A DNA stretch of 40,549 nt. It comes from Alistipes sp. GTDB lineage: Bacteria; Bacteroidota; Bacteroidia; Bacteroidales; Rikenellaceae. The stretch is taken from NCBI GenBank assembly GCA_017937765.1, contig JAGBCY010000003.1, positions 1-40,549 on the forward strand, written 5' to 3'. This document shows positions 1,145 through 20,269 of this stretch, piece after piece (the stretch's first letter is position 1; each line of letters begins with the position of its first letter). Below the pieces are notes generated by a model, which ran no database searches, had not been told where the DNA came from, and saw only the letters and a program-made list of their open reading frames with translations. A program made the position numbers and the translations under genes.

Positions 1145-3214
1145 TTAGTAGCCCACGATCTGCTTGGAGTAGCGATACCAGTGTGGGGCACTCTTGTAGA
1201 TCTCGACAGCTGCTACGGGAACGTATATCGTTAGCGTATCGCCGTAGCCATCGAAGATATAGTCGCCACCGAGTGTGGGTGGTGTCATAGACTCGAGGCG
1301 TATCTCACCGAGGTTCGAGCAGCCCGAGAAGGCGTATTCGCCGATATGGGTGACGCCCGCGGGGATCGTTATGCTCTTCAGACCCGAGCAATCCTTGAAG
1401 GTGTAGTCGCTGATGGTTTCCAGACTCTCGGGAAGCTCGATCTCCTCGAGCGACGTACAGCCGTAGAAGGCGTGGTCACCAATTGATATGAGGCCGGTTC
1501 CCAAATCGATCTCCGACAGTTCACTACAACCGGCGAACGGCCCGTTATTGATATGCTTCACAGTAGAGGCGAGTGTGACGCTACGCATCGGAAGGTCGCT
1601 GAGCAGCATATCGCCCACGACGCTACACTTCTCGGTGAATATCACGCTTTCGGCCTCGAGGCCCGAGAACCAGTGGCGCGAGGTGCTGCCGGTGGTTGTC
1701 TGCGACTTGATATCGCCATCGATTATAAAACGCTCGGTGTGACAGCCGTCGAATGCCATATTACCTACCGAGACGATACTCTTGCCGATGGTGATGCTCT
1801 CCACGTCACACTCGGCAAAGGCGCAGGCACCTATCGATGTGGTGTCGTCGCTAAGTACTATGCGTTTGAGCAGAGCATAGTTATAGAATCCGTACTGGCC
1901 GATATAGCGGATGCCGTCGCTTTGTAGCTCGGTAACCGTCTCGCCGTCAACCTTAAGCACACACTGCTGGCCATTGAGCGGGTTTGCCGTCGGACCGCCG
2001 AAGGTGATGTCGCACCACTCGGCTACGCTCTCGATATGAATCTCCTTGAGGGCATTGCAATCCTCGAATGCGCGGTTGTGGATGTTGTCCACCTCGGGGC
2101 TGAGGTACACACGTTCCAAGATGTCGTAATCGAAGAATGTGCCGGAGCCTATGCTGTTGTTAATGTAGACCGTAGCAAACTCCGAGCCATAGAGCCAGTG
2201 GTTGGGGTCGGTCGTTGCGCACCCCTCGTTGGGGATATAGCAGTCGGTTGTGAGCACACCCTTGCAGCCATTGAAGATGCCGCCCTCGAGAATCTCGATT
2301 TGCGAGGGTAGGGTAAACTCGCTACACCCCGTGCAGCCACTAAACGCGCCCTCGCCAATCTTTGTGAGCGTGGCAGGGAGGTCGAACTGCGTGATCTCGC
2401 GGCAGTTCTCGAAGGTGTGTGCCGGTATGGCGCGCACCAAATAGTCGAAGATGATACGGCCACAGCCGCGCTCCTCGTCGTAGATGTGGGCTAAGAATAG
2501 TGCGCCGAAGCCCTCGCTCGAGCCGATGTCGACCTTGCGTTTTGTCTTGGTGTAGTATGCCACCTCGTTGAGTGCCGAGCCCTGTGCCGACTGTACCACG
2601 ACGAAGCTCGTAAGTAGTTCGCTATCATCGCTTATAACATAAACAGTGGCGATACGCGACGATGTTGTGCGGTTATCGGTAGCGGTGAGGCGCAATACGT
2701 GATCCTCCACCGAGCGCGTCACGCGTGCCGAGAGCCAGATGGCGTCGTTCGAGACGGTGACACGATAATCCTGATTCGTCTGGATTGGAATCTCGTACAG
2801 GGCATCCACCGCACTCAGCGTCACGAGCTTATCCACGTCAGCATTAAAGACGGGGTGCATCTGCTGCGTAATGGGGATGGTTGCACGCTTACCGTTAGAT
2901 AGCTTTACCTCCACGCTACTTGTGCGATCCTCGCCTAAGTGGTTGGGTGCCACGGTGATGGTGAAAGTATTTTGCTCTTTGGTCCCAGATGCGGGCGTGA
3001 TTGTTACCCACTCGTCGGCGGGTGTAGCTGTCCAGCTATACGACGTAGTGAAGAGGTAGTCCTCGCTGCCGCCGTTATAGGGGAATACGGGCTTTAGTGC
3101 ACAGCCCGGATTGAACATAATCGCAGGCGTGTTGTCGCCATCCTCATATTCGCAGGCGGCAAACGTGGTGCATATAATCACAAGTAGCAGTATGTTCTTT
3201 ATAGCTATCTTCAT
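1145..3214 (-). CDS. BACON plus BspA-type leucine-rich-repeat surface lipoprotein
   Basis: A 689-residue predicted lipoprotein. I chose the ATG at 3214, not the upstream one at 3304, because a clean type II signal follows it: hydrophobic residues 7-18, then TFAAC with lipid-bearing Cys21. Residues about 40-130 and 135-225 look like two BACON domains (buried Trp in DEWVTITP, strand ending in ITQQ). The rest is a string of BspA/LRR_5 repeats with the recurring pattern F.GC..L..I.LP..L..I...AF..C. Such proteins sit on the surface of gut Bacteroidota and are associated with binding to host or mucosal proteins. No enzyme motif is visible. It lies 235 bp downstream of the TonB-dependent receptor on the same strand, so the two may share a transcript. 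Its ligand cannot be read from the sequence. Confidence 0.85.
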   Translation of the reverse strand: MKIAIKNILLLVIICTTFAACEYEDGDNTPAIMFNPGCALKPVFPYNGGSEDYLFTTSYSWTATPADEWVTITPASGTKEQNTFTITVAPNHLGEDRTSSVEVKLSNGKRATIPITQQMHPVFNADVDKLVTLSAVDALYEIPIQTNQDYRVTVSNDAIWLSARVTRSVEDHVLRLTATDNRTTSSRIATVYVISDDSELLTSFVVVQSAQGSALNEVAYYTKTKRKVDIGSSEGFGALFLAHIYDEERGCGRIIFDYLVRAIPAHTFENCREITQFDLPATLTKIGEGAFSGCTGCSEFTLPSQIEILEGGIFNGCKGVLTTDCYIPNEGCATTDPNHWLYGSEFATVYINNSIGSGTFFDYDILERVYLSPEVDNIHNRAFEDCNALKEIHIESVAEWCDITFGGPTANPLNGQQCVLKVDGETVTELQSDGIRYIGQYGFYNYALLKRIVLSDDTTSIGACAFAECDVESITIGKSIVSVGNMAFDGCHTERFIIDGDIKSQTTTGSTSRHWFSGLEAESVIFTEKCSVVGDMLLSDLPMRSVTLASTVKHINNGPFAGCSELSEIDLGTGLISIGDHAFYGCTSLEEIELPESLETISDYTFKDCSGLKSITIPAGVTHIGEYAFSGCSNLGEIRLESMTPPTLGGDYIFDGYGDTLTIYVPVAAVEIYKSAPHWYRYSKQIVGY

Positions 3215-3449
3215 AATCCCTAAGGTATGTTTCAGTTTGTCATTATGGACATCCATCCCATCAGCCACTAAGTTTGCGCAGCAGGATCGCACACAACCTG
3301 CCATCTACGCCTACTACGCTTCGTTAATTGCGTCCTGGACACCACACAAAACATTGTCCCCTCCACCTTCGGTATATCGGGTATACTATCTATATACGTA
3401 ATCGCCCTTGAAAAAGTTGCACCCGTGCGGCGTAAAATGTGATATTTTA

Positions 3450-6899: not shown

Positions 6900-6930
6900 T
6901 TTGCTATTTAAATTAATTGGTCTATCTTTG
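6900..6930 (+). promoter_or_regulatory. Promoter of the SusC/SusD-protease cluster
   Basis: TTTG (6900-6903) and TATCTTTG (6923-6930) are separated by exactly 19 bp, a textbook Bacteroides primary sigma promoter. The start of transcription should be near 6937, leaving about 395 nt of leader before susC. Confidence 0.75.
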
Positions 6931-7010
6931 TGCATTAACTTTACACCAAGAGTGTGGACCTACATAATCGCAGGTTGCGTAGCAAGGGTTTCGCTGGCGG
7001 GGTAGAGGAG

Positions 7011-7104
7011 GAGGCCAAGTGGTGAAGAGGATGGAATGAGTGGAGAAGAGGATGGAGGCCAAGTGGAGAATATGATGGAACCGAGTGGAGAAGAGACGGA
7101 GGCC
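7011..7104 (+). repeat. 44-bp purine-rich tandem repeats in the SusC leader
   Basis: Two imperfect 44-bp units (7011-7054 and 7055-7098) and the start of a third (7099) all begin GAGGCC. Units 1 and 2 share GAGGCCAAGTGG, GATGGAA and GAGTGGAGAAGAG, with a compensated one-base shift between the last two blocks. Degenerate related purine-rich sequence continues to about 7230. The 44-bp period is not a multiple of three, which argues against a protein repeat. Confidence 0.75.
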
Positions 7105-7331
7105 GATGATGCGAGAGAGTGTGTTTGTGAGTGTGAGGCTTGGAAAATGGTGAAAGAGAGGCTCGGACGATGGCGAGTGTGAAGATTGGGAGAGAATGAG
7201 TGTAAAGCTTGGGCGACGGTGATGGTGAAATTTGAGGCTGATGAGGAAGTTGATACCTCGCGATGTTGTTGAAAATAAGAAAGATACTAAACTAAAAACT
7301 TTATAACTTTATACAAATTTATTTAAAACTA

Positions 7332-10300
7332 ATGCTTATGGTTAGAAAAGTTGTACTATCAATGGTTGCAACTCTGGTCTTGGGATGCTTCGGAGCATTC
7401 GCACAAGGTCAGCGTGTTACCGGTACAGTGACCGATGATACCGGTATGCCGGTCATCGGAGCAGCGGTTGTAGTCGAGGGAACTTCTCGAGGAACTACTA
7501 CCGACGTTGCCGGTTATTATGAGATTGCGGCTGCATCTGATGCCAACCTGGTATTCTCGTACCTCGGTTTGCAGACTCAGACTGTTGCTGTTGCAGGCCG
7601 TTCGCAGGTAGATGTTGTCCTCGCTGCCGATTCAGAGCAGATCGAGGAGGTCATCGTTCAGGCGTTCGGTACTGCTAAGAAGGAGGCCTTTACCGGTTCG
7701 GCTAAGGTCATCAAGTCAGAGGACCTTTTGAAGACTCAGTCTTCATCGGCTGCCAGCGCACTTGTTGGTAAGGTTGCCGGTCTTCAGACATCTTCGAGCT
7801 CAGGTTCTCTTGGTTCGGAGCCTTCAATCCGTATCCGTGGTTTCGGTTCTATCAACGCGAACCAGGCTCCCCTTTGGGTTGTCGACGGTGTGCCTTATGA
7901 GGGTGACCTTAACAACCTGAATATGGCCGATATCGAGTCGATGACCGTATTGAAGGATGCTGCATCTAACGCACTTTATGGTGCTCGTGGTGCTAACGGT
8001 GTGATTATGGTGACTACCAAGCGTGCTACGGCTGGTGATGCTCGCGTATCGTTCGACGCTAAGTGGGGTGTGAATACTCGCGCGCGCGTACTTTATGATT
8101 ACACACGTGACCCCGGCCAGTACTACGAGATGCACTATACATCGTTGTATAACTACTACCTCGATCAGGGTAACGACTCTTCTACTTCATACCAGAAGGC
8201 TGTTAACACCTTGACATCAAACAATATCGGTGGTTTGGGTTACAACGTTTATACCGTGCCCGCAGGTCAGAACCTTATCGGTACCAACGGTAAGCTCAAC
8301 CCCAACGCAACTCTCGGCCGCAAGGTGACAAACGAGGGTGGTACCTATGGTGATGAGTATTACCTCACTCCCGATGACTGGATGGACGAGTTGTACGACC
8401 CCTCATTCCGTCAGGAGTATAACATCAGCATCGCTGGTGCTTCTGAGAAGTCAAGCGTGTTCGCTTCGTTCGGTTACTTGAACAACAATGGTATCACCGA
8501 CGGTTCGGATATGCAGCGTTGGACAGCACGTCTTCGCGCTGACTATCAGGCAAAGAAGTGGTTGAAGGTGGGTGCTAATATGAACTACACCAACTTCAAC
8601 TGGAACGGTGCTTCTTCATCTAACGAGGGTGACGGTACTACCGCTGACGTATTCTCGGCAGTAGCTAACACCGCTCCTATCTATCCTGTATATATCCGTG
8701 ATGGCGAGGGTAACATCGTTAAGGATAAGTATGGCTGGCCCGTATACGATACCGGTGACGGTCGTGACAACGGCGTATTGCGCCCCAGCGGTCAGCAGGC
8801 TAACCCCTTGCAGCTTATCTGGTTGAACGAGTCTAACTCTGAGGGTAACGCATTCGGTGTTAACGGTTTTGCTGATTTCATCATCATCCCTGGCTTGAAG
8901 CTTACTCTTAACGGTTCGGTATCTATCGACGAGACACGTTCTACATCGCTTAGCAACCCCTACTACGGTCAGTTCGTAACCAATGGTGGTGTTGTATCTA
9001 AGTCACACAGCCGTATCTACTCGCACAACTTGCAGCAGTTGTTGAACTACAACACTGTATTTGGTGCTAACGAGGAGCACAGCCTCGACCTGTTGCTCGG
9101 TCACGAGACTTATTCATATCGTTCATACTCTTTGGGCGGTGCTAAGTCTAACATCTTCGACACCGACAACAACGAGCTTGCTGGTGCAATGGTTGATATG
9201 AGCTCGGCTTCATCATCACGTGGTGAGTACATCAACGAGGGTTACTTCTTCCGTGCACAGTATAACTACGGTGAGCGTATCTTCGCATCGGCTTCATTCC
9301 GTCGCGACGCTTCTACTAACTTCCACCCTGATCACCGTTGGGGTAACTTCTGGTCAGTAGGTGCTGCGTGGATCATCAACCGCGAGAATTGGTTTAATGC
9401 TCCCGTATTCAGCATGTTGAAGGTTAAGGCATCTATCGGTTCTCAGGGTAACGACGGTATCGGTTCATACCGTTACACCGACCTCTACAACGTATCGAAC
9501 GACGGTGCTGGTGGTATCTCTATCGCATTTGCTCAGAAGGGTAACCCCAACATCACTTGGGAGACCAACACTAACTTCAACATCGGCGTTGAGTTCGGTA
9601 TGTGGAACGATCGCTTCAGCGGTAGCATCGACTTCTTTAACCGTAAGACCACTGATATGTTGTTCTCAGTGCCCGTAGCTCCTTCAATGGGTTACTCGTC
9701 ATACTATGACAACATCGGTGATATGGTTAACCGTGGTATCGAGATCGAGTTGAGCGCAGACCTTATCCGCACTCGCAATGTAACTTGGACATTCGGTCTT
9801 AATATGACTCACGTACGTAACAAGGTGCTCTACTTGCCCGAGTCACGTAAGGATCAGGACTTCAACGGCGATGGCGTGTTGGACGGCTTCATCAGCGGTT
9901 CACAGATCGTAGCTGAGGGCTATCCTATGTACACTTGGTTTATGCCTGAGTATCGTGGCGTAAACGAGAACGGTGAGGCTCAGTGGTACTACAAGTATGA
10001 GAAGACCGATGCTGAGGGTAACGGCACAGGTGAGTTCGAGGAGGGCGTTTCTTCAACTTATCAGTACGCTTCGCTCCAGTCATCACGTAAGCTCAAGGGC
10101 TCGGCTACTCCCGACCTCTATGGTGGTTTCAACACTACGTTGTATGCTTACGGTTTCGACTTCTCTATCGCATTTGACTACCAGATCGGTGGTTTGTCAT
10201 ACGATTCAGGTTATGCCGGCTATATGTCATCGCCCAGCGGTACATCAGTTGGTCGGAACTACCACGTTGACTTGTTGAACGCTTGGACTAAGGGCGTAAA

Positions 10301-10601
10301 TGAGGATTCGCAGATTCCTCGTTTCCAGTACGACGATGTTTACTCAGCAGCAACATCGGACCGCTTCCTTACCGACGCTTCGTACATCAACATCTCTAAC
10401 ATCAATATTGGTTATACATTCCCTGCTAAGTGGTGGAACAACAAGATCTCAGGTTTGCGTATCTACGTAGCTTGCGACAACGTTTACTACTGGTCACAGC
10501 GTAAGGGTTTGGATCCTCGCCAGAGCTTCAGCGGTGGTACAACCAATGTTAACTACTCACCTATCCGTACCATCTCGGGTGGTGTAACATTGACCTTCTA
10601 A
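7332..10601 (+). CDS. SusC/RagA-family TonB-linked outer-membrane transporter
   Basis: A 1089-residue protein. It has a signal peptide (cleavage near AFA-QGQ), a carboxypeptidase-regulatory-like domain (about 27-110) and a TonB-box-like stretch (IEEVIVQAFG, near 105-115). The plug carries the SusC signatures SIRIRGFGSINANQAPLWVVDG and DAASNALYGARGANGVIMVTT (split by an intervening segment); a 22-strand-type barrel ends in TLTF. SusC proteins import oligomers captured by the SusD lid lipoprotein; RagA is the peptide-importing member. The neighbours here are proteases, not glycosidases, so a peptide cargo is inferred. A second ATG at 7338 is an equally possible start. susD follows after 8 bp. 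Codons favour GGT, CGT, AAC and TAC, which suggests high expression. Confidence 0.95.
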   Translation: MLMVRKVVLSMVATLVLGCFGAFAQGQRVTGTVTDDTGMPVIGAAVVVEGTSRGTTTDVAGYYEIAAASDANLVFSYLGLQTQTVAVAGRSQVDVVLAADSEQIEEVIVQAFGTAKKEAFTGSAKVIKSEDLLKTQSSSAASALVGKVAGLQTSSSSGSLGSEPSIRIRGFGSINANQAPLWVVDGVPYEGDLNNLNMADIESMTVLKDAASNALYGARGANGVIMVTTKRATAGDARVSFDAKWGVNTRARVLYDYTRDPGQYYEMHYTSLYNYYLDQGNDSSTSYQKAVNTLTSNNIGGLGYNVYTVPAGQNLIGTNGKLNPNATLGRKVTNEGGTYGDEYYLTPDDWMDELYDPSFRQEYNISIAGASEKSSVFASFGYLNNNGITDGSDMQRWTARLRADYQAKKWLKVGANMNYTNFNWNGASSSNEGDGTTADVFSAVANTAPIYPVYIRDGEGNIVKDKYGWPVYDTGDGRDNGVLRPSGQQANPLQLIWLNESNSEGNAFGVNGFADFIIIPGLKLTLNGSVSIDETRSTSLSNPYYGQFVTNGGVVSKSHSRIYSHNLQQLLNYNTVFGANEEHSLDLLLGHETYSYRSYSLGGAKSNIFDTDNNELAGAMVDMSSASSSRGEYINEGYFFRAQYNYGERIFASASFRRDASTNFHPDHRWGNFWSVGAAWIINRENWFNAPVFSMLKVKASIGSQGNDGIGSYRYTDLYNVSNDGAGGISIAFAQKGNPNITWETNTNFNIGVEFGMWNDRFSGSIDFFNRKTTDMLFSVPVAPSMGYSSYYDNIGDMVNRGIEIELSADLIRTRNVTWTFGLNMTHVRNKVLYLPESRKDQDFNGDGVLDGFISGSQIVAEGYPMYTWFMPEYRGVNENGEAQWYYKYEKTDAEGNGTGEFEEGVSSTYQYASLQSSRKLKGSATPDLYGGFNTTLYAYGFDFSIAFDYQIGGLSYDSGYAGYMSSPSGTSVGRNYHVDLLNAWTKGVNEDSQIPRFQYDDVYSAATSDRFLTDASYINISNINIGYTFPAKWWNNKISGLRIYVACDNVYYWSQRKGLDPRQSFSGGTTNVNYSPIRTISGGVTLTF

Positions 10602-10609
10602 CGTAAAAT

Positions 10610-12313
10610 ATGATTAAGACTATGAAAGTAAATAAGATATTTAAGACTGCAGCCCTTGTACTCTGTTCGTCAGTGTTGTTCAGCGGCTGTATTAAGGAGG
10701 TCCTTCCCAAGGCTGGTTCTATCACTCAGGAGCAGCTCGCAGATAGCGATGTTGGTCTTGAGTATATGATGAAGGCTATCCCTGCATATATGGCAGCAAG
10801 CACCGCTATGAGCTATGACCACTCGGACTTTGGTTACCACTCAATCGGTGTTTGGATGGATCACCACGCATTGATTGCATTCCCTTGTACACGTCCCGAC
10901 CGTGGTGGTAACCCCTACTACTGCCGTTTCCAGGCTACGAACTACGGTTTCGATATGAGTATGAACGGTGGTTACACTCACTACTTGTGGTATAACTACT
11001 ATCCTTTGATCAAGAAGGCTAACGAGGTTATCGGTGCTGCTGGTGACCAGGAGGATATGCGCGAGTATCGCGGTATCTCTAAGACCTTCCGTGCGTTGTT
11101 CTATCTTGACTTGGCTCGTTACTACGATGCACTTCCCGCTAAGGCTCCCGAGCTCCCCACATATGAGGGTGACTTGACTAAGGTTCAGGGTCTTACAGTG
11201 CCTATCGTAACCGAGGCTACGGATGAGAAGGCTGCTAAGAACAACCCCCGTGCTACACGCGAGGAGCTCTTCACCTTCATCCTTTCGGACTTGGCTGACG
11301 CTGAGGCTTGCTTGAAGCCCTACGAGGATGGCGAGGTTAAGGCTACTGTTTATGGCTCAACTCCTACCTATCCCGAGTTGGCTGCTGTTTACGGCTTGTA
11401 CGCACGTGCTTACTTGTGGCTCGGTGGTTTCGAGGATGTTACCTATGAGAACGTTCCTACGGGTGAGGCTGCTTATCGTCTCGCTGCTGAGTATGCTCGC
11501 AAGGCTATCAACACTGCGAACGCTCCCATTATGTCTGAGAACGAGTGGACAAACATCACTACGGGCTTCAACACCGTGGTTCCCGCTTGGATGTGGGCAA
11601 CAACCCTTTCGAGCGATACCGTTCTTAACAACCTCTTCGCTTTCGTAGCGCATATGGCTCCCGAGGCTACTTACGGTTATGCACCTTTGGCCTGCCAGGG
11701 CGTACCCTCAAGTATGTACGATCGTTTGCGCAGCACCGACTTCCGTAAGAAGCTTATCGTAGGTCCTAACACTTCGTACGACGAGTTTAAGAGCTATACC
11801 TCTATGTCTCGTGACGAGTGGGAGGAGTTGGCTTACCGTGCTCCTTACACTAACTTCAAGTTCCGTCCTTTCCAGGGTGAGCGCGTTGACTATATGACTG
11901 CTAACGCCGTTTCGCTCCCCGTTATGCGTATTGAGGAGATGTACTTGATCGAGGCTGAGGCTACCGCACACTACGACGATGCTACTGCACGTATGTTGAT
12001 CGGTACGTTTATGGTGAACCGCGATCCTAACTACTTTATCCTTCCTACTCAGAACGTTATCGACGAGATCATCTTCCAGAAGAGCGTTGAGTTCTGGGGC
12101 GAGGGTATTGTATTGTTCGATATGAAGCGTCTTAATATGGGCGTGAATACATTGGAGCAGAACTACCAGTCGGGTATGTTGTTCAAGACCGACGGTCGTC
12201 TTCCTTGGTGGAATATGCCTATTCCTTCGTCTGAGTCATCAGTAAATACAGCGATTAAGGGCTTCGAGGGTCCTGATCCTTCTTACGGTGTTGAGTCAGA
12301 GGATGCGATCTAA
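10610..12313 (+). CDS. SusD/RagB-family surface lipoprotein
   Basis: A 567-residue lipoprotein: LFSGC places the lipidated Cys at residue 27 (23 if the ATG at 10622 is used). The TPR-rich SusD fold is suggested by the conserved segment FRALFYLDLARYYDALP, the later PVMRIEEMYLIEAEA and the C-terminal substrate-lid region ending NMPIPSSE. SusD forms the hinged lid on the SusC barrel and captures the ligand at the cell surface. The order susC-susD with 8 bp between them is typical of co-translated pairs. An aromatic-rich N-terminal half (HYLWYNYYPL and others) could line the binding site; the ligand type cannot be told from the sequence. Confidence 0.93.
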   Translation: MIKTMKVNKIFKTAALVLCSSVLFSGCIKEVLPKAGSITQEQLADSDVGLEYMMKAIPAYMAASTAMSYDHSDFGYHSIGVWMDHHALIAFPCTRPDRGGNPYYCRFQATNYGFDMSMNGGYTHYLWYNYYPLIKKANEVIGAAGDQEDMREYRGISKTFRALFYLDLARYYDALPAKAPELPTYEGDLTKVQGLTVPIVTEATDEKAAKNNPRATREELFTFILSDLADAEACLKPYEDGEVKATVYGSTPTYPELAAVYGLYARAYLWLGGFEDVTYENVPTGEAAYRLAAEYARKAINTANAPIMSENEWTNITTGFNTVVPAWMWATTLSSDTVLNNLFAFVAHMAPEATYGYAPLACQGVPSSMYDRLRSTDFRKKLIVGPNTSYDEFKSYTSMSRDEWEELAYRAPYTNFKFRPFQGERVDYMTANAVSLPVMRIEEMYLIEAEATAHYDDATARMLIGTFMVNRDPNYFILPTQNVIDEIIFQKSVEFWGEGIVLFDMKRLNMGVNTLEQNYQSGMLFKTDGRLPWWNMPIPSSESSVNTAIKGFEGPDPSYGVESEDAI

Positions 12314-12351
12314 TGTGGTTCCTATTTGTTAATAGAAAATAAGATTACATT

Positions 12352-14757
12352 ATGAAAAATATCAAATTTTTGTTTTTGGCATTAGCGACACTCGTTGCCG
12401 GCGCATTCACCGCCTGCCAGGAGGATTGGACCCCCGGTCCAGTTGACTCTGATAAGAGTGTGTACTTGCCCGTAGATGTGAATGTTGCTGCATTCCCTAC
12501 CGTGGATGACGAGTCAACTCCAGATGTTGATGAGCGTTTGCGCGCTTTGTTCCCCGTATACCGTCAGAACACCAATGGTGAGTTGACTGTTGAGTTCCGC
12601 ACGCGTCTCTTTGATGAGGATCTTAGCTTTATCCTTGAGCGTGATGAGGAGGGTAACCCCATTGAGACTCTTCCCGTTCCCGAGGCTTTCAAATTTGACG
12701 AGTCTGTAACCTTCGTCGATGGCGAGAACGTTGCTTATTTGGGTATCACTTTGAATGAGGTTATGCTCGGCAGAATCTCGGTAGGTGAGCTCTTCGATGC
12801 TGAGATTATGGTTAAGGATCCTCAGTATCACGGCAACTATGGTCTCTACCGCAAGGTCATCAGCTTCGGTATTCCTGAGACTTGGAATCCCGTTGACGAG
12901 AACTTGGCCTCTAACGAGGGTATCTTGTTCGATGACTTCCTCTCTGGTCTCTATGGCCAGCCCGCTGGTAACGGTGCTCCCGTAGTTATCGAGGAGAGTG
13001 GTTCGCGTCCCGGTTACTACCGTTTGGTTAATCCTTTCAAGGAGGAGAACGCCATTGTCTTTATCGGTGGTATTCCTTCGGATATGTCATTTGCTCCCGG
13101 TGATACATACCTCGAGGTTGACGCACGTGATCCTAACAACGTATTCATTCCCTACCAGAACGTCGGTGTATCTATCGAGGGTTGGGGCGATGTATATATT
13201 GGTATGACAACCAACACTCCCGGTACTTTGGGTGTTTTGAAGGATGGTATCATTACCTTCCCCGCTAACTGTATGGGTGTTTTCCAGGCCAGTGGTTCGG
13301 GTAACTATGCTAACACAAGCGGTCTCTTTAGAATCGTTCTTCCTGGTGTGAGCCTTGTTGATTACTCAATGAGTGTTGCTTGCGTTGGTATGGAGACATC
13401 TATCGACAACACAGTTACTAACGCTATCCTTAACTTTGCGACAGGTGCTGACGTTGAGAAGTTCCGTTTCGCTGTTGTAAAGGGTGATCATCCTATCACA
13501 TCTAAGGTTTCTACCGGTATTGGTAAGTTCGAGGAGCAGTATCACGAGGCTATCACTAACCTCATCGACGATGAGTACGAGCCTACTGACGAGGATACTA
13601 TGGCTGAGGCTACTCCTTCGCAGAACACTTGGTATGTATCGTTCGACGAGAGCGACTTGTACACCGTATTCGCTGTTCCTTACAACGCTAATGGTGAGCC
13701 CATTATGGAGAATATCGCATCGACATTCTTCTACTACCGTGCTGCCGGCTCTACTACCGAGGCTCCCGAGATGCCCGATATGAAGGTACAGTTTGGTTCG
13801 GTTGCTAACGTTATGGGTAATCCCCAGTACGAGGCATCTTATCCTGCACCTTACATCCTTTGCCTTAACGTTGCACAGGAGGATGGTAAGTATCTCTCTG
13901 CAGTAGCAAGCTACTTCGCTGAGACTGCTAAGGTTGAGGCTGCGTTGGCTGCTGGTGAGACTTTCGAGTCGTTGCTCGCAAGTGCTGATGCTCAGGATAT
14001 GAGCGATGCAATTAGCGGAATCGCTGCTGGTCAGTTTGATCCTCTGTTGTTCAACAACCTTACTCCTGATACCGAGTACACCGTTATCGTTGGTACTACC
14101 AACATCTATGGTCAGTCGGCATACTACCGTGCTGATGCTAAGACAGCTAAGTACAACGGTTTCCTTAATATCGGTGTATATGAGTTTACCGATGGCAACA
14201 GCAAGATGCAGATTAAGTTCAAGCCCTTCTTCAACCAGAATTATGGTCAGATGTTCCTTATCACTTGGGTAGGTGACGACCTTATCACGGATGAGGGTGA
14301 GCCTATGGAGTTGTCGTTCGTAACATATTCGTTCCCCGATTACGGTACCGTAGCTTGCTCTGGTCAGATTTATGAGCTTGGCGACTACTTCTTCAATGTG
14401 CCTATCGACTACTACAATGGCGATAAGTCGAAGTTCTGGGGCTACAGAAGCTCGTCGACTGCAGACTATGAGTATGCTAACGAGTCGTTCGTTATGGAGT
14501 ATGACAATAATGGCAACATCGTAGGTATCCAGACTTACTTCCAGAAGTACGTTGTTGATACTGAGGGTAATATGGAGGTTCTTGCAGAGTTCGATCCCGC
14601 AACTACAACAGTTAAGTTGATCGAGTCGCATATGCCTACACCCGAGGAGCCCGCAACGTTCTCTGCACCTCGCAAGTCATTCTCTAAGATCGGTGTGTAC
14701 ACTGGTACTATCGACCTTACGTTGAGAACTGATTTAACCCCTGTAAGCATTAAGTAA
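12352..14757 (+). CDS. Large surface lipoprotein of unknown function, third gene of the SusCD cluster
   Basis: An 801-residue protein not recognised by name. The N-terminus is a clear lipoprotein signal (hydrophobic 5-17, AFTAC with Cys21), followed by an acidic linker. Residues about 490-600 contain a fibronectin-III-like segment (LTPDTEYTVIVGTTNIYGQ). The protein is very acidic, contains no catalytic motif that I can identify, and ends in TPVSIK without a sorting domain. It starts 38 bp after susD and is followed by two hairpins and the first protease. By position it corresponds to the SusE/SusF-like surface-binding proteins of other SusCD loci, which hold the substrate near the importer. 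That role is inferred from position only. Confidence 0.8.
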   Translation: MKNIKFLFLALATLVAGAFTACQEDWTPGPVDSDKSVYLPVDVNVAAFPTVDDESTPDVDERLRALFPVYRQNTNGELTVEFRTRLFDEDLSFILERDEEGNPIETLPVPEAFKFDESVTFVDGENVAYLGITLNEVMLGRISVGELFDAEIMVKDPQYHGNYGLYRKVISFGIPETWNPVDENLASNEGILFDDFLSGLYGQPAGNGAPVVIEESGSRPGYYRLVNPFKEENAIVFIGGIPSDMSFAPGDTYLEVDARDPNNVFIPYQNVGVSIEGWGDVYIGMTTNTPGTLGVLKDGIITFPANCMGVFQASGSGNYANTSGLFRIVLPGVSLVDYSMSVACVGMETSIDNTVTNAILNFATGADVEKFRFAVVKGDHPITSKVSTGIGKFEEQYHEAITNLIDDEYEPTDEDTMAEATPSQNTWYVSFDESDLYTVFAVPYNANGEPIMENIASTFFYYRAAGSTTEAPEMPDMKVQFGSVANVMGNPQYEASYPAPYILCLNVAQEDGKYLSAVASYFAETAKVEAALAAGETFESLLASADAQDMSDAISGIAAGQFDPLLFNNLTPDTEYTVIVGTTNIYGQSAYYRADAKTAKYNGFLNIGVYEFTDGNSKMQIKFKPFFNQNYGQMFLITWVGDDLITDEGEPMELSFVTYSFPDYGTVACSGQIYELGDYFFNVPIDYYNGDKSKFWGYRSSSTADYEYANESFVMEYDNNGNIVGIQTYFQKYVVDTEGNMEVLAEFDPATTTVKLIESHMPTPEEPATFSAPRKSFSKIGVYTGTIDLTLRTDLTPVSIK

Positions 14758-14778
14758 ATCATAAGTATTTCGTCCTAT

Positions 14779-14828
14779 GGGGCGGCAACCTCGAAGGAGC
14801 TGCCCCGAGGCGAACTCTCGAAAGAGAG
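14779..14828 (+). other. Two hairpins between the 801-residue lipoprotein and protease 1
   Basis: Hairpin 1 pairs 14779-14786 (GGGGCGGC) with 14799-14806 (GCTGCCCC), enclosing a small CCT/AGG stem. Hairpin 2 is CTCTC-GAAA-GAGAG (14815-14828), a GNRA-type tetraloop. Neither is followed by a T run, so they look like intercistronic processing or mRNA-stability elements rather than full terminators. Confidence 0.55.
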
Positions 14829-14870
14829 ACTTAATGGAGTACTAACAAACAATGATAAACAATTAAACTT

Positions 14871-16865
14871 ATGAATAAGGGTAAGATTTTATTGATAGGC
14901 TTGGCAGGAATGCTTGCAGCGGCTTGTGCTACCGACACGGTAGATCAGCCTCAGGCTACTCCCGAGGCATCTTATGCCAAGAAATTCGTTAATACCTCTT
15001 CAGATGCAGTGCAGGGTAAGCTTCTCTTCTACGTTGAGGAGGGTAGCGTGGCTCAGCTCGAGGCAGCCGCTTCGGCATCAGCTACAGGTATTAGCCAGAT
15101 CGATGCCGTTGCTTCGGAGATCGGTGCAACAAGCATCTCACAGGTATTTAATATGAAGGTTAACGCTGAGCTCAAGCGTGAGCTCGGTATGGACCGTTGG
15201 TTCGCAATCGAGTTCTCGAAGGACGTAGACCTCGACGTTGCTGCTAAGCAGTTGGCTGCTGTTGCTAACGTTGAGCGCGTAGAGTTCTCGACAATCGTTA
15301 AGGCTCCTAATGTTGACGAGCCCGAGATCGTTGAGGTTGCTGATATGAGCACAACACGTGCTGGTGAGTATCCTAACGACCCCAGCTTTGGTGCTCAGTG
15401 GAGCTTGATCAACAAGGGTAATACCAGCGCAACTCCCGGTACTGAGGGTTACATCTTCCCCGGTGCTCGCGCAGGTGTTGATATCAACGTTGTTCCCGCT
15501 TGGGAGCTCTCGAAGGGTAACTCTGACGTTATCGTTGCTATCGTTGATAACGGTGTTGACTACAACCACGAGGACTTGAAGGCAAATATGCTCGTTAACG
15601 AGGCTGAGTTGAATGGTACTGAGGGCGTTGATGATGATGAGAATGGCTATGTAGACGACGTTTACGGCTATAACTTCTACAACAACACTCCCGTTATCAC
15701 CTTTGGTAATGGTCACGGTACTCACGTAGCTGGTACTGTTGCTGCTGTTAGCAACAATGGTGTAGGTGTTGCTGGTGTTGCTGGTGGTACTGGTGCTGGT
15801 GATGGTGTGCGTCTTCTCTGCTGCCAGATGCTCTCTGACGTAGATACTGCTTATAGTGAGGCAGGTTACGATTCAGCTGCTAAGGCTATTGAGTATGCTG
15901 CTGACCGTGGTGCTGTTATTGCGAACAACTCTTGGGGTAATGATCCCGGTATGTTCGTTAACGACAACTCGTTCGAGGTAAATATGTCGCTCCGCTATAT
16001 TGCGTTCAAGTACTTTATGACCAAGAAGAATCACCCCGCTTTGGATGGTGGTATCTTGATCTTCGCAGCTGGTAACGAGGAGGCTCCTATGGCTGGTTAT
16101 CCCGGTGCTTACAGCGAGTATATCTCTGTAACCTCTATCGGTCCTCACGGTCTTCCCGCAACTTATACCAACTACGGTCCTGGCTGTAACATCGCTGCTC
16201 CTGGTGGTTTGTACTTCTCTAACCAGTATAGCCACGCAATGCGTTCGGGTTGCATCCTTTCGACTTTGCCCGATAACAAGTATGGTTATATGCAGGGTAC
16301 CTCGATGGCTACGCCTCACGTATCTGGTATTGCTGCTTTGGCTCTCTCGTACGCTTCAGATATGGGTAAGTGCTACACGGCAGATCAGTTCAAGACTATG
16401 CTTCTTACGTCGGTTAACAACCTCGACTACTACCTCACAGGCGACTACGCAGCATATGCCGGCAAGATGGGTACAGGTACTATCGACGCTTACCGTGCTA
16501 TGATGGCAGTTCGTGGTATCAGCTGCGTTCCTGTTATGGCAGGCGAGGAGGCTGTTATCAACCTTACGGCACTTGTTGCTGATGGTAGCACTCAGTTCAA
16601 GACTTGGGAGGAGATCATCATCTCTGATGACGTTCGCGAGCGTCTTGGCATCAAGAACGAGACTATCTTTGGTGACGACCTCATCCTCACTTGCGAGAAC
16701 CCCGGTGGTGGTGTTATCTCAGTAGTGATGGTTGCTGGTGGTGATACTATCGGTGGTGGTAGCACTATGGGCGGTATGCGCATCGAGAAGGAGATTGCTC
16801 TTATCGTTAGCGATCGTTTCACTGCAACTGATGGTGTTGTTTCTAACCCCGGTGGTTGGTTGTAA
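14871..16865 (+). CDS. S8 (subtilisin-family) lipoprotein protease 1
   Basis: A 664-residue secreted serine endopeptidase, lipid-anchored at Cys19 (MLAAAC). Residues about 35-145 form a fervidolysin-like pro-region (NTSSDAVQGKLLFYV...GMDRWFAIEF). The catalytic domain follows, with Asp226 (VDNGVDYNHEDL), His282 (GHGTHVAGTV), oxyanion Asn402 (FAAGNE) and Ser478 (GTSMATPHVSG). An acidic loop, EGVDDDENGYVDD (251-263), is the calcium-binding-type insertion common in Bacteroidota subtilases. A tail of about 120 residues ends NPGGWL. The motif TRAGEYP (162-168) lies at the pro-region/catalytic boundary and may be the self-processing site. It is followed 43 bp later by a small lipoprotein, and the pair is repeated immediately downstream. 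Likely role: surface proteolysis feeding the SusCD importer (inferred). Confidence 0.93.
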   Translation: MNKGKILLIGLAGMLAAACATDTVDQPQATPEASYAKKFVNTSSDAVQGKLLFYVEEGSVAQLEAAASASATGISQIDAVASEIGATSISQVFNMKVNAELKRELGMDRWFAIEFSKDVDLDVAAKQLAAVANVERVEFSTIVKAPNVDEPEIVEVADMSTTRAGEYPNDPSFGAQWSLINKGNTSATPGTEGYIFPGARAGVDINVVPAWELSKGNSDVIVAIVDNGVDYNHEDLKANMLVNEAELNGTEGVDDDENGYVDDVYGYNFYNNTPVITFGNGHGTHVAGTVAAVSNNGVGVAGVAGGTGAGDGVRLLCCQMLSDVDTAYSEAGYDSAAKAIEYAADRGAVIANNSWGNDPGMFVNDNSFEVNMSLRYIAFKYFMTKKNHPALDGGILIFAAGNEEAPMAGYPGAYSEYISVTSIGPHGLPATYTNYGPGCNIAAPGGLYFSNQYSHAMRSGCILSTLPDNKYGYMQGTSMATPHVSGIAALALSYASDMGKCYTADQFKTMLLTSVNNLDYYLTGDYAAYAGKMGTGTIDAYRAMMAVRGISCVPVMAGEEAVINLTALVADGSTQFKTWEEIIISDDVRERLGIKNETIFGDDLILTCENPGGGVISVVMVAGGDTIGGGSTMGGMRIEKEIALIVSDRFTATDGVVSNPGGWL

Positions 16866-16908
16866 TGGGTGACTATACGTAATAATAATCTCTAAAAACA
16901 AAGAAATT

Positions 16909-17370
16909 ATGAAGAATCTTAAGATATGGTCACTTGCATTGGTACTTCTTATGGCAATGACCGGTTGCGAGCCTACCCCCACCGACAACTTCAAGGCCGG
17001 TGACGTTAAGGCTATTGTAAACGAGTGGCGTCTTGTAGAGTGGGATAGCGAGGTTGCTCCCTACGACGTGTACGTTGATTTCAACGAGGATAACACCTTC
17101 GTTATCTACCAGCGTATCTACGGCACAGCTTACGAGCGTTTCGATGGTAACTACTCTTTGAATGGTAACAACCTCACTGGTATGTACGGCGATGGTACGG
17201 AGCTTAAGCCCTACCGTGCTGAGGTATCTGTTGATGGCGAGACGTTGCGTCTCCACAGCACCGAGGGTGAGCGCGAGATTATGGGTGTCTACGCAAAGAC
17301 TACCATTCCCGAGAACGTGAAGGCTGAGGCTGACGGTACACGTGCAGCTGAGGGTGTTCCCTTCTTGTAG
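16909..17370 (+). CDS. Small lipocalin-like lipoprotein, partner of protease 1
   Basis: A 153-residue lipoprotein (AMTGC, Cys20). The body alternates short beta-strands and begins with a W-R-L-V-E-W pattern. It continues with VDFNEDNTFVIYQ, a 'fluffy' lipocalin-like signature seen in many Bacteroidota lipoproteins, and ends with AKTTIPENVKAEA and the tail TRAAEGVPFL. I do not recognise a defined family beyond lipocalin-like. It lies 43 bp after protease 1 and is followed by a strong terminator, so the two are co-transcribed. Small beta-barrel lipoproteins next to surface proteases in Bacteroides can be their inhibitors (staphostatin-like inhibitors beside C10 proteases), so inhibitor, chaperone or substrate are all possible. 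Its tail shares the TRAxE motif with the protease. Confidence 0.8.
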   Translation: MKNLKIWSLALVLLMAMTGCEPTPTDNFKAGDVKAIVNEWRLVEWDSEVAPYDVYVDFNEDNTFVIYQRIYGTAYERFDGNYSLNGNNLTGMYGDGTELKPYRAEVSVDGETLRLHSTEGEREIMGVYAKTTIPENVKAEADGTRAAEGVPFL

Positions 17371-17403
17371 TCGCTCTCTACGGATTTGATAATCCGATGA
17401 ATG

Positions 17404-17438
17404 GGTGTCACCGACTTTTGTTGGTGACACCTTTTTTT
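17404..17438 (+). terminator. Terminator after cassette 1
   Basis: A 12-bp stem (17404-17415 with 17420-17431, one G-T pair) with a TTTT loop, followed by T7 (17432-17438): a very strong rho-independent terminator. Confidence 0.92.
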
Positions 17439-17570
17439 GTGGCAGCAGGGAGAAAGGCGGGCTGTCTATCGAGTGGCGGGATTTCGTTGGGTGGACAATA
17501 TTGACTCTTTACGGTGCGTTACATTGTTGTTCGGTACGTTGGACTAAGCGGCTCGTTATGTGTTAATTGT

Positions 17571-17581
17571 CCAATAATTGG
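17571..17581. repeat. Palindrome upstream of the cassette 2 promoter
   Basis: CCAAT-A-ATTGG, an 11-bp perfect inverted repeat, lies 10 bp upstream of the -33 element. It is a candidate operator half-site pair, but short enough to occur by chance. Confidence 0.35.
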
Positions 17582-17590
17582 TCGAAAGTT

Positions 17591-17621
17591 GTTGTACTTA
17601 ACGAAAAAATTGCTAACTTCG
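17591..17621 (+). promoter_or_regulatory. Promoter of cassette 2 (protease 2)
   Basis: GTTG (17591-17594), 19 bp, then TAACTTCG (17614-17621), one mismatch from TAnnTTTG. It lies 55 bp before the chosen ATG at 17676. Confidence 0.55.
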
Positions 17622-17675
17622 CAACTTGAAACTAATAATTGTCTGAGAAGGAACTTTTTAACTTTAAACAAAATT

Positions 17676-19676
17676 ATGAATAAGGGTAAACTTTTACTTA
17701 TCTCTTTGGTTGCTCTCTTTGCAGCTTCGTGTGCAACGGATAGCGTCGATGAGTCGGCGTCGGTTGAGCAGAGTGCTGTGGCAGCCAAAAAATTTGTCAA
17801 TACCTCGGATAATGCCGAGCAGGGTAAGCTTATCATCTACGTATCGGAGGAGTGCGCCACGCGTTTGGAGTGCTCGGAGGTTACACGTAGCGGTATGACC
17901 GAGTTGGACCTCTTGGCTTCGGACCTCGGTGCTACGTCAATCACCCCCGTCTTTAACCTCAAGGTTAACGGCGAGCGTAAGCGCGCGATGGGTATGGACC
18001 GTTGGTTTGTTGTTAATTTCCCTGTTCAGGAGTCGTTGGAGGGTGCGGCTGACCGCCTCGCTAACATCGACTATGTTGAGGCTGTGCAGTTCTCGACGAT
18101 CATCCCTCGCCCCGTACAGCAGGCCGTGGAGTTCGACCCCGCGAGCATCGCTCAGACACGTGCCGAGGAGTATCCCTTTAACGATCCCGGTTTGTACTAC
18201 CAGTGGCACTATATCAACAGGGGCTACGTTACGCTCTATCCTACATCGGTAGCTGGTGAGGATATCAACGTTGAGCCCGCTTGGAAGTACACATCGGGCC
18301 GTCCCGAGATTGTTGTTGCCGTTATGGACGAGGGTGTATGCTATACGCACGAGGACTTGAAGGACAATATGCGTGCTAACGAGGCCGAGTTGAATGGTGT
18401 TGAGGGTGTTGATGATGACGAGAATGGTTACGTCGACGACATCTATGGATATAACTTTGCCACCAACGGCCGCGTGTCGTGGGGTAGAGATGGTGATTCT
18501 GGCCACGGTACACACGTCGCAGGTACGGTAGCCGCTGTTAATAACAACGGTATCGGTGTTGTCGGTGTTGCCGGTGGCTCGGGCTCAGGCGATGGTGTTC
18601 GCATCTTTTCGGCACAGATCTTCTCGGGTAAGCAGACCGCTGGTTATGATGCTACGGCCCAGGCTGCAGAGTATGCTGCCGACAATGGTGCTTGTATCTT
18701 GCAGTGTTCGTGGGGCTTCGAACCCAACGCTTTCAGTGGCGATAATATGTTTGTCCAGGGTATCGCAGGCGTTGAGTATAAGGCATTCCAGTACTTCATC
18801 GAGACTAAGAACTGCGATGCTTTGGACGGCGGCTTGGTAATCTTTGCGGCAGGTAACGAGGGTCAGCCCGTTGCTGGCTATCCTGGTGCCTACAACGATT
18901 ATATCGCAGTTACGGCATACGCGCCCGATGGTCTTCCTGCTTACTATACCTGCTACGATAAGGGCTGTAACGTATCGGCTCCTGGTGGCGAGTACTACCT
19001 CGTAGGTAACAGCTGGGCTGAGACTGGTTGCGTTTACTCTACGCTTCCGAATAATACCTATGGCTATATGCAGGGTACTTCGATGGCTTGCCCCCACGTG
19101 TCGGGTATTGCGGCTCTTGGTCTGTCGTATGCTCTGGACCTCGGCAAGACCTACACTGTCGATCAGTTTAAGTCGTTGCTCCTCACTTCGGTTAACTCTT
19201 TCGACGAGGACCGCTTCGCGGATTTCAAGGCTAATCCCGAGGGCGGTACCCTAAACCTTGCAAGCTATCGTGGTAAGATGGGTACTGGTAAGATCGATGC
19301 TTATCGTCTGTTTATGGGTATCCGTGGTGTGAGCTGTATACCTGTGTCGACAACAGAGTCTAACACTATCGACTTCAATGCATTTATCGGCGACGGTAAT
19401 GTGAGTATGAAGATGCTCGACTACGAGATCTCGGACGAGACTCGCGAGGCTTTGGGCATCACCTACGACGCAGCATTTGGCGGTAAGCTCGCCCTCGAGT
19501 GCACAAAGCCTGGTGCTGGTACTATCACCGTAGGCCTTGTTGCTGGTGGTAAGAACGTTGGTGGCGGTATGGTTACTGGCGGTATGCGCATCGAGAAGGA
19601 GTTTGCCATCATCGCACGTCCCGGTGTTCCGGTAGACGAGAATGGTCAGCCTCAGATCCCTGGCGGTTGGTTGTAG
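17676..19676 (+). CDS. S8 (subtilisin-family) lipoprotein protease 2
   Basis: A 666-residue paralogue of protease 1 with the same layout. I chose the ATG at 17676 because it gives the same MNKGKLLLI start and a lipobox (FAASC, Cys19); a longer frame would hide the signal and overlap the promoter. The pro-region spans about 36-145. Catalytic Asp218 (VMDEGVCYTHEDL), His277 (GHGTHVAGTV), Asn394 (FAAGNE) and Ser469 (GTSMACPHVSG) are all present, and the acidic loop EGVDDDENGYVDD is identical to that in protease 1. TRAEEYP (161-167) lies at the pro-region boundary. The active-site Asp motif differs from protease 1 (DEG versus DNG), and Cys residues flank the active site (VCYTHED, SMACPHV), suggesting altered specificity. 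It has its own promoter, so the two proteases can be expressed separately. Confidence 0.93.
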   Translation: MNKGKLLLISLVALFAASCATDSVDESASVEQSAVAAKKFVNTSDNAEQGKLIIYVSEECATRLECSEVTRSGMTELDLLASDLGATSITPVFNLKVNGERKRAMGMDRWFVVNFPVQESLEGAADRLANIDYVEAVQFSTIIPRPVQQAVEFDPASIAQTRAEEYPFNDPGLYYQWHYINRGYVTLYPTSVAGEDINVEPAWKYTSGRPEIVVAVMDEGVCYTHEDLKDNMRANEAELNGVEGVDDDENGYVDDIYGYNFATNGRVSWGRDGDSGHGTHVAGTVAAVNNNGIGVVGVAGGSGSGDGVRIFSAQIFSGKQTAGYDATAQAAEYAADNGACILQCSWGFEPNAFSGDNMFVQGIAGVEYKAFQYFIETKNCDALDGGLVIFAAGNEGQPVAGYPGAYNDYIAVTAYAPDGLPAYYTCYDKGCNVSAPGGEYYLVGNSWAETGCVYSTLPNNTYGYMQGTSMACPHVSGIAALGLSYALDLGKTYTVDQFKSLLLTSVNSFDEDRFADFKANPEGGTLNLASYRGKMGTGKIDAYRLFMGIRGVSCIPVSTTESNTIDFNAFIGDGNVSMKMLDYEISDETREALGITYDAAFGGKLALECTKPGAGTITVGLVAGGKNVGGGMVTGGMRIEKEFAIIARPGVPVDENGQPQIPGGWL

Positions 19677-19709
19677 TATTTGGTGTTAACGTAAACTTAA
19701 GATATTGAT

Positions 19710-20195
19710 ATGAAGAGAATTAATATATGGTCGCTTGTTGCGATGCTGTGTTTCGGCTTGACGGCCTGCGGTGAGAACCTCGGTGGTGACGACAATGGTG
19801 GCAACGGAGGTAATGATTCGAAGGTGGCAATTGCCGGCGAGTGGGGTATTGTATCGTGGAACGGTGCTGAGCCCGTATTCGACATCTATGTAGACTTCAA
19901 CGAGGATGGTACCTTCGAGATGTACCAGCAGGTTTATTCGCTCACCTATGAGCTCTTTACGGGCCACTACGTTGCGGATAAGGGCATTATCAACGGCTCG
20001 TACTCTGACGGTAGCGCGTGGAAGTGTAGCTATAAGTACACGGTGGATAAGGATGAGGCTGGCGTTCAGCGTCTCACGCTTGATAGCGAGGAGACTATTG
20101 TCGTAACCAGCGTATATACCGCTACGGAGATTCCCGCCGAGGTTAAGGCCGAGGCTTCGGAGACACGTGCAATGGAGGTTGAGCCCTTCTTGTAG
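19710..20195 (+). CDS. Small lipocalin-like lipoprotein, partner of protease 2
   Basis: A 161-residue lipoprotein (GLTAC, Cys20) paralogous to the product of 16909-17370. Shared features are a start of the type MK-x-I-x-IWSL, the segment YVDFNEDGTFEMYQ, an IPAEVKAEA stretch and a TRAMEVEPFL tail. It carries an added Gly/Asn/Asp-rich linker (residues about 22-36) between the lipid anchor and the barrel. It follows protease 2 after 33 bp and ends in its own terminator. The body sequence has diverged more than the tail, which suggests that the tail is functionally constrained. Same possibilities as for the first copy: inhibitor, accessory factor or substrate of the adjacent protease. Confidence 0.8.
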   Translation: MKRINIWSLVAMLCFGLTACGENLGGDDNGGNGGNDSKVAIAGEWGIVSWNGAEPVFDIYVDFNEDGTFEMYQQVYSLTYELFTGHYVADKGIINGSYSDGSAWKCSYKYTVDKDEAGVQRLTLDSEETIVVTSVYTATEIPAEVKAEASETRAMEVEPFL

Positions 20196-20215
20196 TGGTC
20201 TGCCATCATACGGTT

Positions 20216-20249
20216 ATCCCCGAGGAGCACGGCTCTTCGGGGATTTTTA
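20216..20249 (+). terminator. Terminator after cassette 2
   Basis: A 13-bp stem (20216-20228 with 20232-20244, one G-T pair), ACG loop, then TTTTTATTTG. The region is convergent with waaA, which ends at 20270; the A/T content on the other side is too weak to call it bidirectional. Confidence 0.88.
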
Positions 20250-20269
20250 TTTGTTTCGGGCTTTTATGC

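Follow-up and report, generated by a model that had tools for sequence, protein, structure and literature searches.

The locus described here, a SusCD transporter locus with two subtilisin-like (S8) proteases in a 40,549-nucleotide (nt) stretch of Alistipes sp. DNA (contig JAGBCY010000003.1; the whole stretch is referred to as the window), belongs to a class of loci that are usually read by their glycosidases. Among the closest described systems, RagAB of Porphyromonas gingivalis and BT2263-2264 of B. thetaiotaomicron, each a SusC/RagA plus SusD/RagB pair as found here, are oligopeptide SusCD transporters (PMC10132118; statements on this and the other published systems refer to the accessible sections of the cited papers). 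Peptidases are encoded in a SusCD locus of F. collinsii (five, of families S9, S37, M24 and M43; PMC10132118), in polysaccharide utilization loci of Petrimonas mucosa (M60 and S15; PMC7768429) and, together with glycosidases, in the SusCD locus BT4240-50 (M60-like; PMC11992087), and for these loci uptake of peptides or glycopeptides was proposed; a SusCD pair of F. psychrophilum clusters by expression with a collagenase (PMC9723704). Proteases encoded in such loci are not mentioned in the accessible parts of PMC7618045 and PMC4936053. Published examples of peptidases in SusCD loci thus exist, mostly as predictions, and an earlier note on this DNA overstated the case in implying that SusCD loci lack proteases of their own.

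Proteases partnered by other proteins are also on record. KLIKK protease-potempin pairs occur in Tannerella forsythia, where the protease mirolase is subtilisin-like, and PDB entry 8ehe contains potempin C with mirolase (PMC7296668, PMC4404884). In the PrcB-PrcA-PrtP system of Treponema denticola, PrcB is thought to help hold the mature dentilisin subtilase at the membrane (PMC8167434).

The window lies in an assembly of 1.92 Mb that is 85.7% complete (G000:C31:1-40549). Its forward strand encodes, in this order, SusC, SusD, a large lipoprotein (SLP) and two successive pairs of a subtilase and a lipocalin-like lipoprotein (S8a with lipA, S8b with lipB), flanked by reverse-strand genes for an outer-membrane beta-barrel protein on one side and KdtA on the other (lengths in amino acids, aa):

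7332-10601, + strand, SusC/RagA-type TonB-dependent transporter, 1089 aa (TIGR04056, 766.7 bits, cut-off 368)
10610-12313, + strand, SusD-like lipoprotein lid, 567 aa (PF14322, 35.5 bits, and PF07980, 29.6 bits, both above cut-off)
12352-14757, + strand, SLP, large lipoprotein, 801 aa (no family at E 0.001)
14871-16865, + strand, S8a, lipoprotein subtilase with a prodomain followed by a catalytic domain, 664 aa (PF00082, 166.7 bits, E 9.2e-49; PF16361, E 1.5e-21)
16909-17370, + strand, lipA, lipocalin-like lipoprotein, partner of S8a, 153 aa (PF13648, E 5e-6, above cut-off)
17676-19676, + strand, S8b, lipoprotein subtilase, 666 aa (PF00082, 152.3 bits, E 2.3e-44; PF16361, E 6e-24; scored on a longer frame starting at GTG)
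19710-20195, + strand, lipB, lipocalin-like lipoprotein, partner of S8b, 161 aa (PF13648, E 0.0023, below cut-off)

With a probability of roughly 0.6, this is a nutrient-acquisition locus in which lipid-anchored subtilases, acting together with SusCD and SLP, cleave protein on the cell surface for import of the fragments, and each subtilase has a dedicated lipocalin-like lipoprotein. SLP and SusD would capture a substrate protein, the lipid-anchored subtilases would cut it at the cell surface, SusD would close over the fragments, and SusC would import them with energy from TonB. The lipocalin-like partner would most likely bind and control its subtilase: as an inhibitor it would protect the surface proteins of the cell itself, and as an anchor it would keep the subtilase once the lipidated prodomain had been cut off. 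The observations behind this reading are the genes, their intact catalytic motifs, a recurring linkage, a constant pairing and a parallel divergence of the partners; from them we infer surface exposure, proteolysis, binding of lipocalin to enzyme, and peptide import.

SusC and SusD are separated by 8 nt, an adjacency that defines SusCD transporter loci of the Bacteroidota. Both subtilases belong to family S8 by PF00082 and by their D, H and S motifs, Foldseek matches to subtilisins (best E 1.7e-21) agree with this, and both possess the PF16361 prodomain and a lipobox cysteine; lipobox C19 and the catalytic D, H and S do not vary across the 26 S8 proteins aligned. The start of S8b is placed by homology and the lipobox at ATG 17676, replacing the mechanically called GTG 17514. 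The two lipocalins are 42% identical to each other. Scans with Pfam and NCBIfam assigned none of the proteins of the locus to a glycosidase, lyase or sulfatase family, so the locus lacks the carbohydrate-active enzyme expected of a polysaccharide utilization locus; they agree with the gene content given in the earlier note (SusC, SusD, a third lipoprotein, S8 proteases and small lipoproteins), which saw the small lipoproteins and missed their pairing with S8. Compared with RagAB and BT2263-2264, the proteases here are encoded in the same locus and the cargo is presumptive; compared with the F. collinsii, P. mucosa and BT4240-50 loci, the protease families are different, and no protease-lipocalin pair is mentioned in the accessible sections on those loci. 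A search of the openly accessible literature, in which 'lipocalin' was not a search word, returned no report of SusCD loci in which S8 proteases are paired with lipoproteins. New relative to the earlier note are the S8-lipocalin pair as a unit, a terminator-like hairpin between the pairs, a non-conserved leader, and a shared aromatic-Leu C-terminus.

The linkage of S8 to SusCD recurs among relatives. SusD was searched against 150 genomes of the family, 47 of which contributed a total of 54 match rows, the first being the window itself; the 40 regions fetched correspond to rows 2 to 41, and the 13 weakest rows were left out. SusC is beside SusD in 38 of these regions, the other two (L062, L065) having SusD alone, and S8 is found downstream in 18 of the 38 (cut by the contig end in L072 and in two frames in L082), on the same strand as SusC and SusD in all 18, in KdtA-flanked and other places. 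On a SusD tree of 45 rows (the 38 regions, the window, and six loci added for having S8: L100, L101, L103, L244, L245 and L248), the S8 label required 7 changes against a shuffled mean of 15.0, and none of 500 shuffles gave a value as low. The neighbourhood of S8 and SusCD is not due to chance, and the comparison across relatives that the earlier note called for found S8 genes conserved in these 18 of 38 regions.

The closest S8 alignment match in named genomes belongs to an Alistipes sp. metagenome-assembled genome from sheep colon (L100, the best segment being 75% identical), which has the same gene order as the window. Nine loci, including the window, possess two pairs (the others being L060, L061, L063, L064, L070, L073, L100 and L243), and in five of them (L063, L064, L070, L073, L243) the second pair is followed by a C10 protease and then a small lipoprotein; the C10 protease was identified by Pfam in L063 (PF01640, E 6.6e-57; I69 prodomain, E 5.9e-16) and by similarity in the other four. 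In L082 a second SusC-SusD with a PF15890 zinc metallopeptidase (15694-18193) comes directly after the S8-lipocalin set. In relatives, SusCD loci of a different type (L260-L262) also have S8 at their end, and a lipocalin lies one gene further along. The capture of a presumed peptide cargo, its surface proteolysis and its import probably belong together, as the earlier note had proposed; the linkage, its agreement with the SusD tree and the additional C10 and PF15890 peptidases support this, and a GH2 glycosidase in one distant locus, discussed below, speaks against it.

The S8-less relatives show what else may follow SusCD. Downstream same-strand genes were tallied for 19 S8-less loci (omitting L086, which has a weak S8 match), and in 8 of the 19 an opposite-strand gene lies directly after the first lipoprotein. 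Pfam scans of 30 proteins, namely 18 of the 21 genes beyond the first lipoproteins and 12 of the 20 first lipoproteins (L086 included), identified an epimerase, three integrases, an aminopeptidase P, response regulators with PglZ, and ribosomal and other genes; none of the 30 is a glycosidase, the substitution that the earlier note had named as evidence to the contrary. The 12 first lipoproteins scanned match no Pfam family, and the remaining 8 of the 20 resemble SLP. As a positive control, the glycosidase scan identified a GH3 in another SusCD locus of the window's own genome (L026). Three of the S8-less loci (L078, L085, L089) have a phage-type integrase on the same strand right after the SusC, SusD and lipoprotein genes, possibly a sign of mobility or phase variation.

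The S8-lipocalin pairing is constant in the sampled loci. For all 22 S8 genes (at least 450 aa and at least 300 bits, which omits the L072 and L082 fragments) in 16 SusD-anchored regions, a sample selected by SusD and not by lipocalin, the next same-strand gene encodes a lipocalin lipoprotein; PF13648 matches 40 of the 50 lipocalins collected, partly from lipocalin-anchored regions, at E 0.01. Among 40 pairs for which both full genes were available, S8 and lipocalin identity distances are correlated (Mantel r 0.81, a value reached in none of 2000 permutations; the species tree was not removed). In the S8 and lipocalin trees alike, one branch sets the 22 single-pair rows apart from the rest, which places the origin of the second pair inside the two-pair group. 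The single pairs of L244 and L245, in a KdtA-flanked place like that of the window, are neighbours of this group in both trees. The S8 tree separates first from second pairs well (2 and 1 changes). The recurring unit is the S8-lipocalin pair, in which the lipocalin is perhaps an inhibitor or an anchor.

A fused S8b-lipB model (mean predicted local distance difference test score, pLDDT, 86.3; predicted TM-score, pTM, 0.75), from which no docking was read, aligns with pro-subtilisins over 510 to 548 columns versus approximately 348 to 423 for mature-enzyme entries, and therefore the lipidated N-terminus belongs to the prodomain. To judge from this model, autoprocessing would free the S8 enzyme from its own lipid anchor. 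The AlphaFold2 model of SLP (pLDDT 77.4, pTM 0.48) has Foldseek matches mostly to FN3/Ig proteins with TM-scores below 0.4, and its profile matches are of FN3 type and weak; SLP is possibly a string of Ig/FN3-like domains. Its identification as a known glycan-binding protein was dropped because it has no family, weak FN3-type profile matches and generic FN3/Ig folds.

Several observations weigh against the nutrient-acquisition reading. No S8 is present in 20 of the 38 related SusCD regions, so S8 is dispensable for transport. SusCD was seen in 4 of 20 PF16361-anchored regions (L214, L217, L220, L224; the sample leaves out the weakest matches, includes four regions of one same-family genome, and several of its regions end at contig ends). 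Among 20 lipocalin-anchored regions, of which L252 and L258 are cut by contig ends, S8-lipocalin pairs occur without SusCD in view in L249, L250, L253, L254 and L256, and lipocalins without S8 in view in L251, L257 and L259. The lipocalin tree separates first and second pairs less well (2 and 3 changes) than the S8 tree, and thus a clean separation was not found for the lipocalins. A GH2 is encoded just upstream of the S8-lipocalin pair in the distant locus L104, where SusCD is on the other strand. The two closest solved SusC relatives, 'SusC homolog' 8aa4 (E 1.5e-98) and RagA (E 6.5e-94), score too alike for SusC similarity to choose between them, and the two solved SusD relatives found are both named 'SusD-like carbohydrate binding protein' (E 1.1e-14 and 2.3e-9; no ligand shown). 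The SusC homolog 8aa4 is presumably of the glycan type. RagB is not among the PDB matches of the window SusD at E 0.01, and the nearest solved SusC and SusD do not decide the ligand type by sequence. Finally, the similarity of the lipocalins to potempin E (E 0.0018 and 0.0022) rests on the signal peptide and is gone at E up to 5 without it, and therefore the sequence does not choose between inhibitor and anchor; potempin E is kept as an analogy, and no other chain named potempin is among the lipocalin matches listed at E 5.

Other arrangements of these genes were also seen. In the lipocalin-anchored L255 the order of S8 and lipocalin is reversed, with SusCD not in view. Eight subtilases with PF16361, several of them in tandem, are encoded in the same-family genome G019, where SusCD is not in view (L210, L211, L212, L213). 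A different subtilase arrangement occurs in L107, L110, L123, L124, L129, L136 and L172, where S8 is larger (approximately 750 to 1080 aa) and the next gene encodes approximately 300 aa; the start of this smaller gene product looks PorV-like.

The alternative that survives best keeps the same locus function and has the lipocalin, in place of inhibiting, anchor or stabilise the mature subtilase at the outer membrane once autoprocessing has removed the lipidated prodomain, like PrcB of dentilisin, which is a real possibility, though short of even odds. Dentilisin, like the S8-lipocalin pair, combines a lipidated subtilisin-type zymogen with partner lipoproteins: T. denticola PrtP requires PrcB, a 23-kDa lipoprotein, and PrcB and PrcA1 retain lipids, which mature PrtP does not (PMC8167434). 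The S8 lipobox precedes the prodomain, and the pairing is constant in the sampled loci. Dentilisin differs in gene order and partners and has no SusCD. The PrtP model NF033595 matches S8a at E 9.7e-23, but the two subtilases, with 80.6 and 65.8 bits, fall short of its cut-off of 300. Against the anchor role, PrcB is said in the accessible part of PMC8167434 to have no homologues outside oral Treponema. The potempins, protease-paired small lipoproteins of T. forsythia, itself a member of the Bacteroidota, are instead described as specific inhibitors (PMC7296668, PMC4404884; title of PDB 8ehe). There too a secreted Bacteroidota protease is adjacent to a small lipoprotein, but the potempin gene precedes its protease, whereas the lipocalin gene follows it in 22 of 22 cases here.

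It is unlikely that the locus serves glycan or glycopeptide uptake, with the subtilases stripping glycoproteins such as mucin and glycan-bearing pieces being imported. BT4240-50 of B. thetaiotaomicron, with its M60-like protease, was proposed to target mucin glycoproteins (PMC11992087), and the presumed glycan type of the SusC homolog 8aa4, the names of the solved SusD relatives, the GH2 of L104 and a protein with a PNGase F C-terminal domain in the window (37767-38882) fit such a function. The PNGase F-like gene, however, is 17 kb away on the other strand, and no glycosidase was identified in the locus, in the 30 proteins of S8-less relatives, or in 17 further proteins near S8-lipocalin pairs, the GH2 of L104 apart.

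Less likely still, the subtilases would function in defence, competition or host interaction, beside an importer of unrelated cargo only by retained genomic place: pairs without SusCD in view exist, and in the KdtA-flanked L244 and L245 the transporter is strongly diverged (SusD 61 and 77 bits) and S8 is not (680 and 679 bits), but the downstream, same-strand position of S8 in all 18 S8-bearing regions, at KdtA-flanked and other places, and its presence at the end of a different SusCD locus type argue otherwise.

The two partners of the S8-lipocalin pair share their C-terminal ends. Of 48 S8 proteins of 600 to 720 aa, 46 end in W plus L, M or F and the other two in IKY, so that none has the KLIKK end of the T. 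forsythia proteases, which carry a C-terminal type IX secretion system domain ending KLIKK and for which no SusCD is mentioned in the accessible sections of PMC7296668 and PMC4404884. In 41 of 49 lipocalins the last two residues are F, Y, L or W followed by L, F or M. In a background of 327 other lipobox frames of the same regions, some of which are surely not genes, 0 have the S8-type end and 10 the lipocalin-type end; the tail rows are related, so these counts give no probability. An aromatic-Leu C-terminus is thus common to both partners and rare in other lipoprotein-like frames, and may act as an active-site plug or in sorting. By eye, lipocalin tails (-VPFL) resemble the junction of prodomain and catalytic domain (-VPFDD, -YPFND) in part of the loci. 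A more speculative proposal, which we regard as doubtful, is a self-restrained protein utilisome: SusCD, the capture lipoprotein, the lipid-anchored subtilase and its own lipocalin inhibitor would form one surface machine, and the inhibitor tail (x-P-F-L or x-R-F-L) would mimic the zymogen cleavage site of its protease and plug the active site until substrate competes it out. In this proposal cleavage would take place at a putative zymogen site, x-P-F before N/D-D in many loci, and the -GGWL tail of the subtilase may act likewise or may mark both partners for the same dock. If it were true, Bacteroidota would import peptides by a regulated 'cut and swallow' device that has its own protection built in.

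The locus is preceded, divided and ended by putative regulatory features:

6901-6930, + strand, Bacteroidales-type promoter-like site, TTG-N19-TATCTTTG (pattern match)
6937-7331, + strand, leader of approximately 395 nt with a GA-rich tandem repeat at 7004-7106, the last approximately 50 nt conserved
17403-17432, + strand, intrinsic-terminator-like hairpin between the two pairs (13 pairs, loop of 4, T-run)
20216-20244, + strand, intrinsic-terminator-like hairpin at the locus end (13 pairs, loop of 3, T-run)

The site at 6901-6930 is the only forward-strand match of the pattern TTG-N18-22-TANNTTTG in the window, which has five on the reverse strand; the pattern is presumably the Bacteroidales promoter consensus. 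A clearly similar promoter-like sequence is located upstream of susC in six relatives (L060, L061, L063, L070, L073, L100), where the leader is approximately 130 to 265 nt long and its middle is without conservation. No Rfam match was found anywhere in the window, and because leader length and middle vary among relatives, a conserved regulatory leader, to which the earlier note had looked for control of the locus, was rejected. That note had also seen no sensor or extracytoplasmic function (ECF) sigma/anti-sigma pair nearby, which holds in that no ECF sigma, anti-sigma or hybrid sensor is among the 28 window proteins scanned (part of the open reading frames), and is qualified by a sigma-54-type response regulator (32044-33189) located 12 kb from the locus.

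A terminator scan of the window yielded 14 sites versus 11.8 expected, and all but the two 13-pair hairpins have at most 7 pairs. The hairpin between the pairs makes two transcription units probable, SusC-SusD-SLP-S8a-lipA and S8b-lipB, the latter perhaps with its own transcription start. In the gap before the second S8, examined in eight of the nine two-pair loci (L100 left out), a terminator-like hairpin is present in three (the window, L060, L073) and in none of the other five; a -7-like box 62 to 98 nt upstream of the second S8 is present in all eight, as exact TAnnTTTG in six and as TAnnTTCG in the window and L060, and both promoter boxes are present in one (L061).

Elsewhere, the genome of the window encodes five SusC loci above the family cut-off, one of them with the gene split into two frames (L028 3325-6286, C19:33427-36283), and four S8 proteins: two in the locus described, one in L023, where two lipocalin-containing proteins lie alongside and SusCD is not in view, and one behind a different SusCD locus (L024, C31:89001-109000). 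This second SusCD locus has DUF4984, DUF5003 and DUF4458/leucine-rich repeat lipoproteins and ends in an S8 with an -NGWL tail. The SusD paralogues without an adjacent SusC (L065 5659-7557 = C26:46763-48307 of the same genome, and L062 in genome G118) are 52% and 56% identical to the window SusD, and that of L065 includes a BACON domain. On the reverse strand of the window are a BspA-type leucine-rich repeat protein with BACON domains (1145-3304) and, next to the PNGase F C-terminal domain protein, a DPP IV-like S9 peptidase (38886-40523).

A recurring type of SusCD-protease locus with fixed lipoprotein partners would provide a signature by which protein use by gut Bacteroidota could be recognised in sequence, and the lipocalin-like partners would be candidate protease inhibitors or anchors of a new family.

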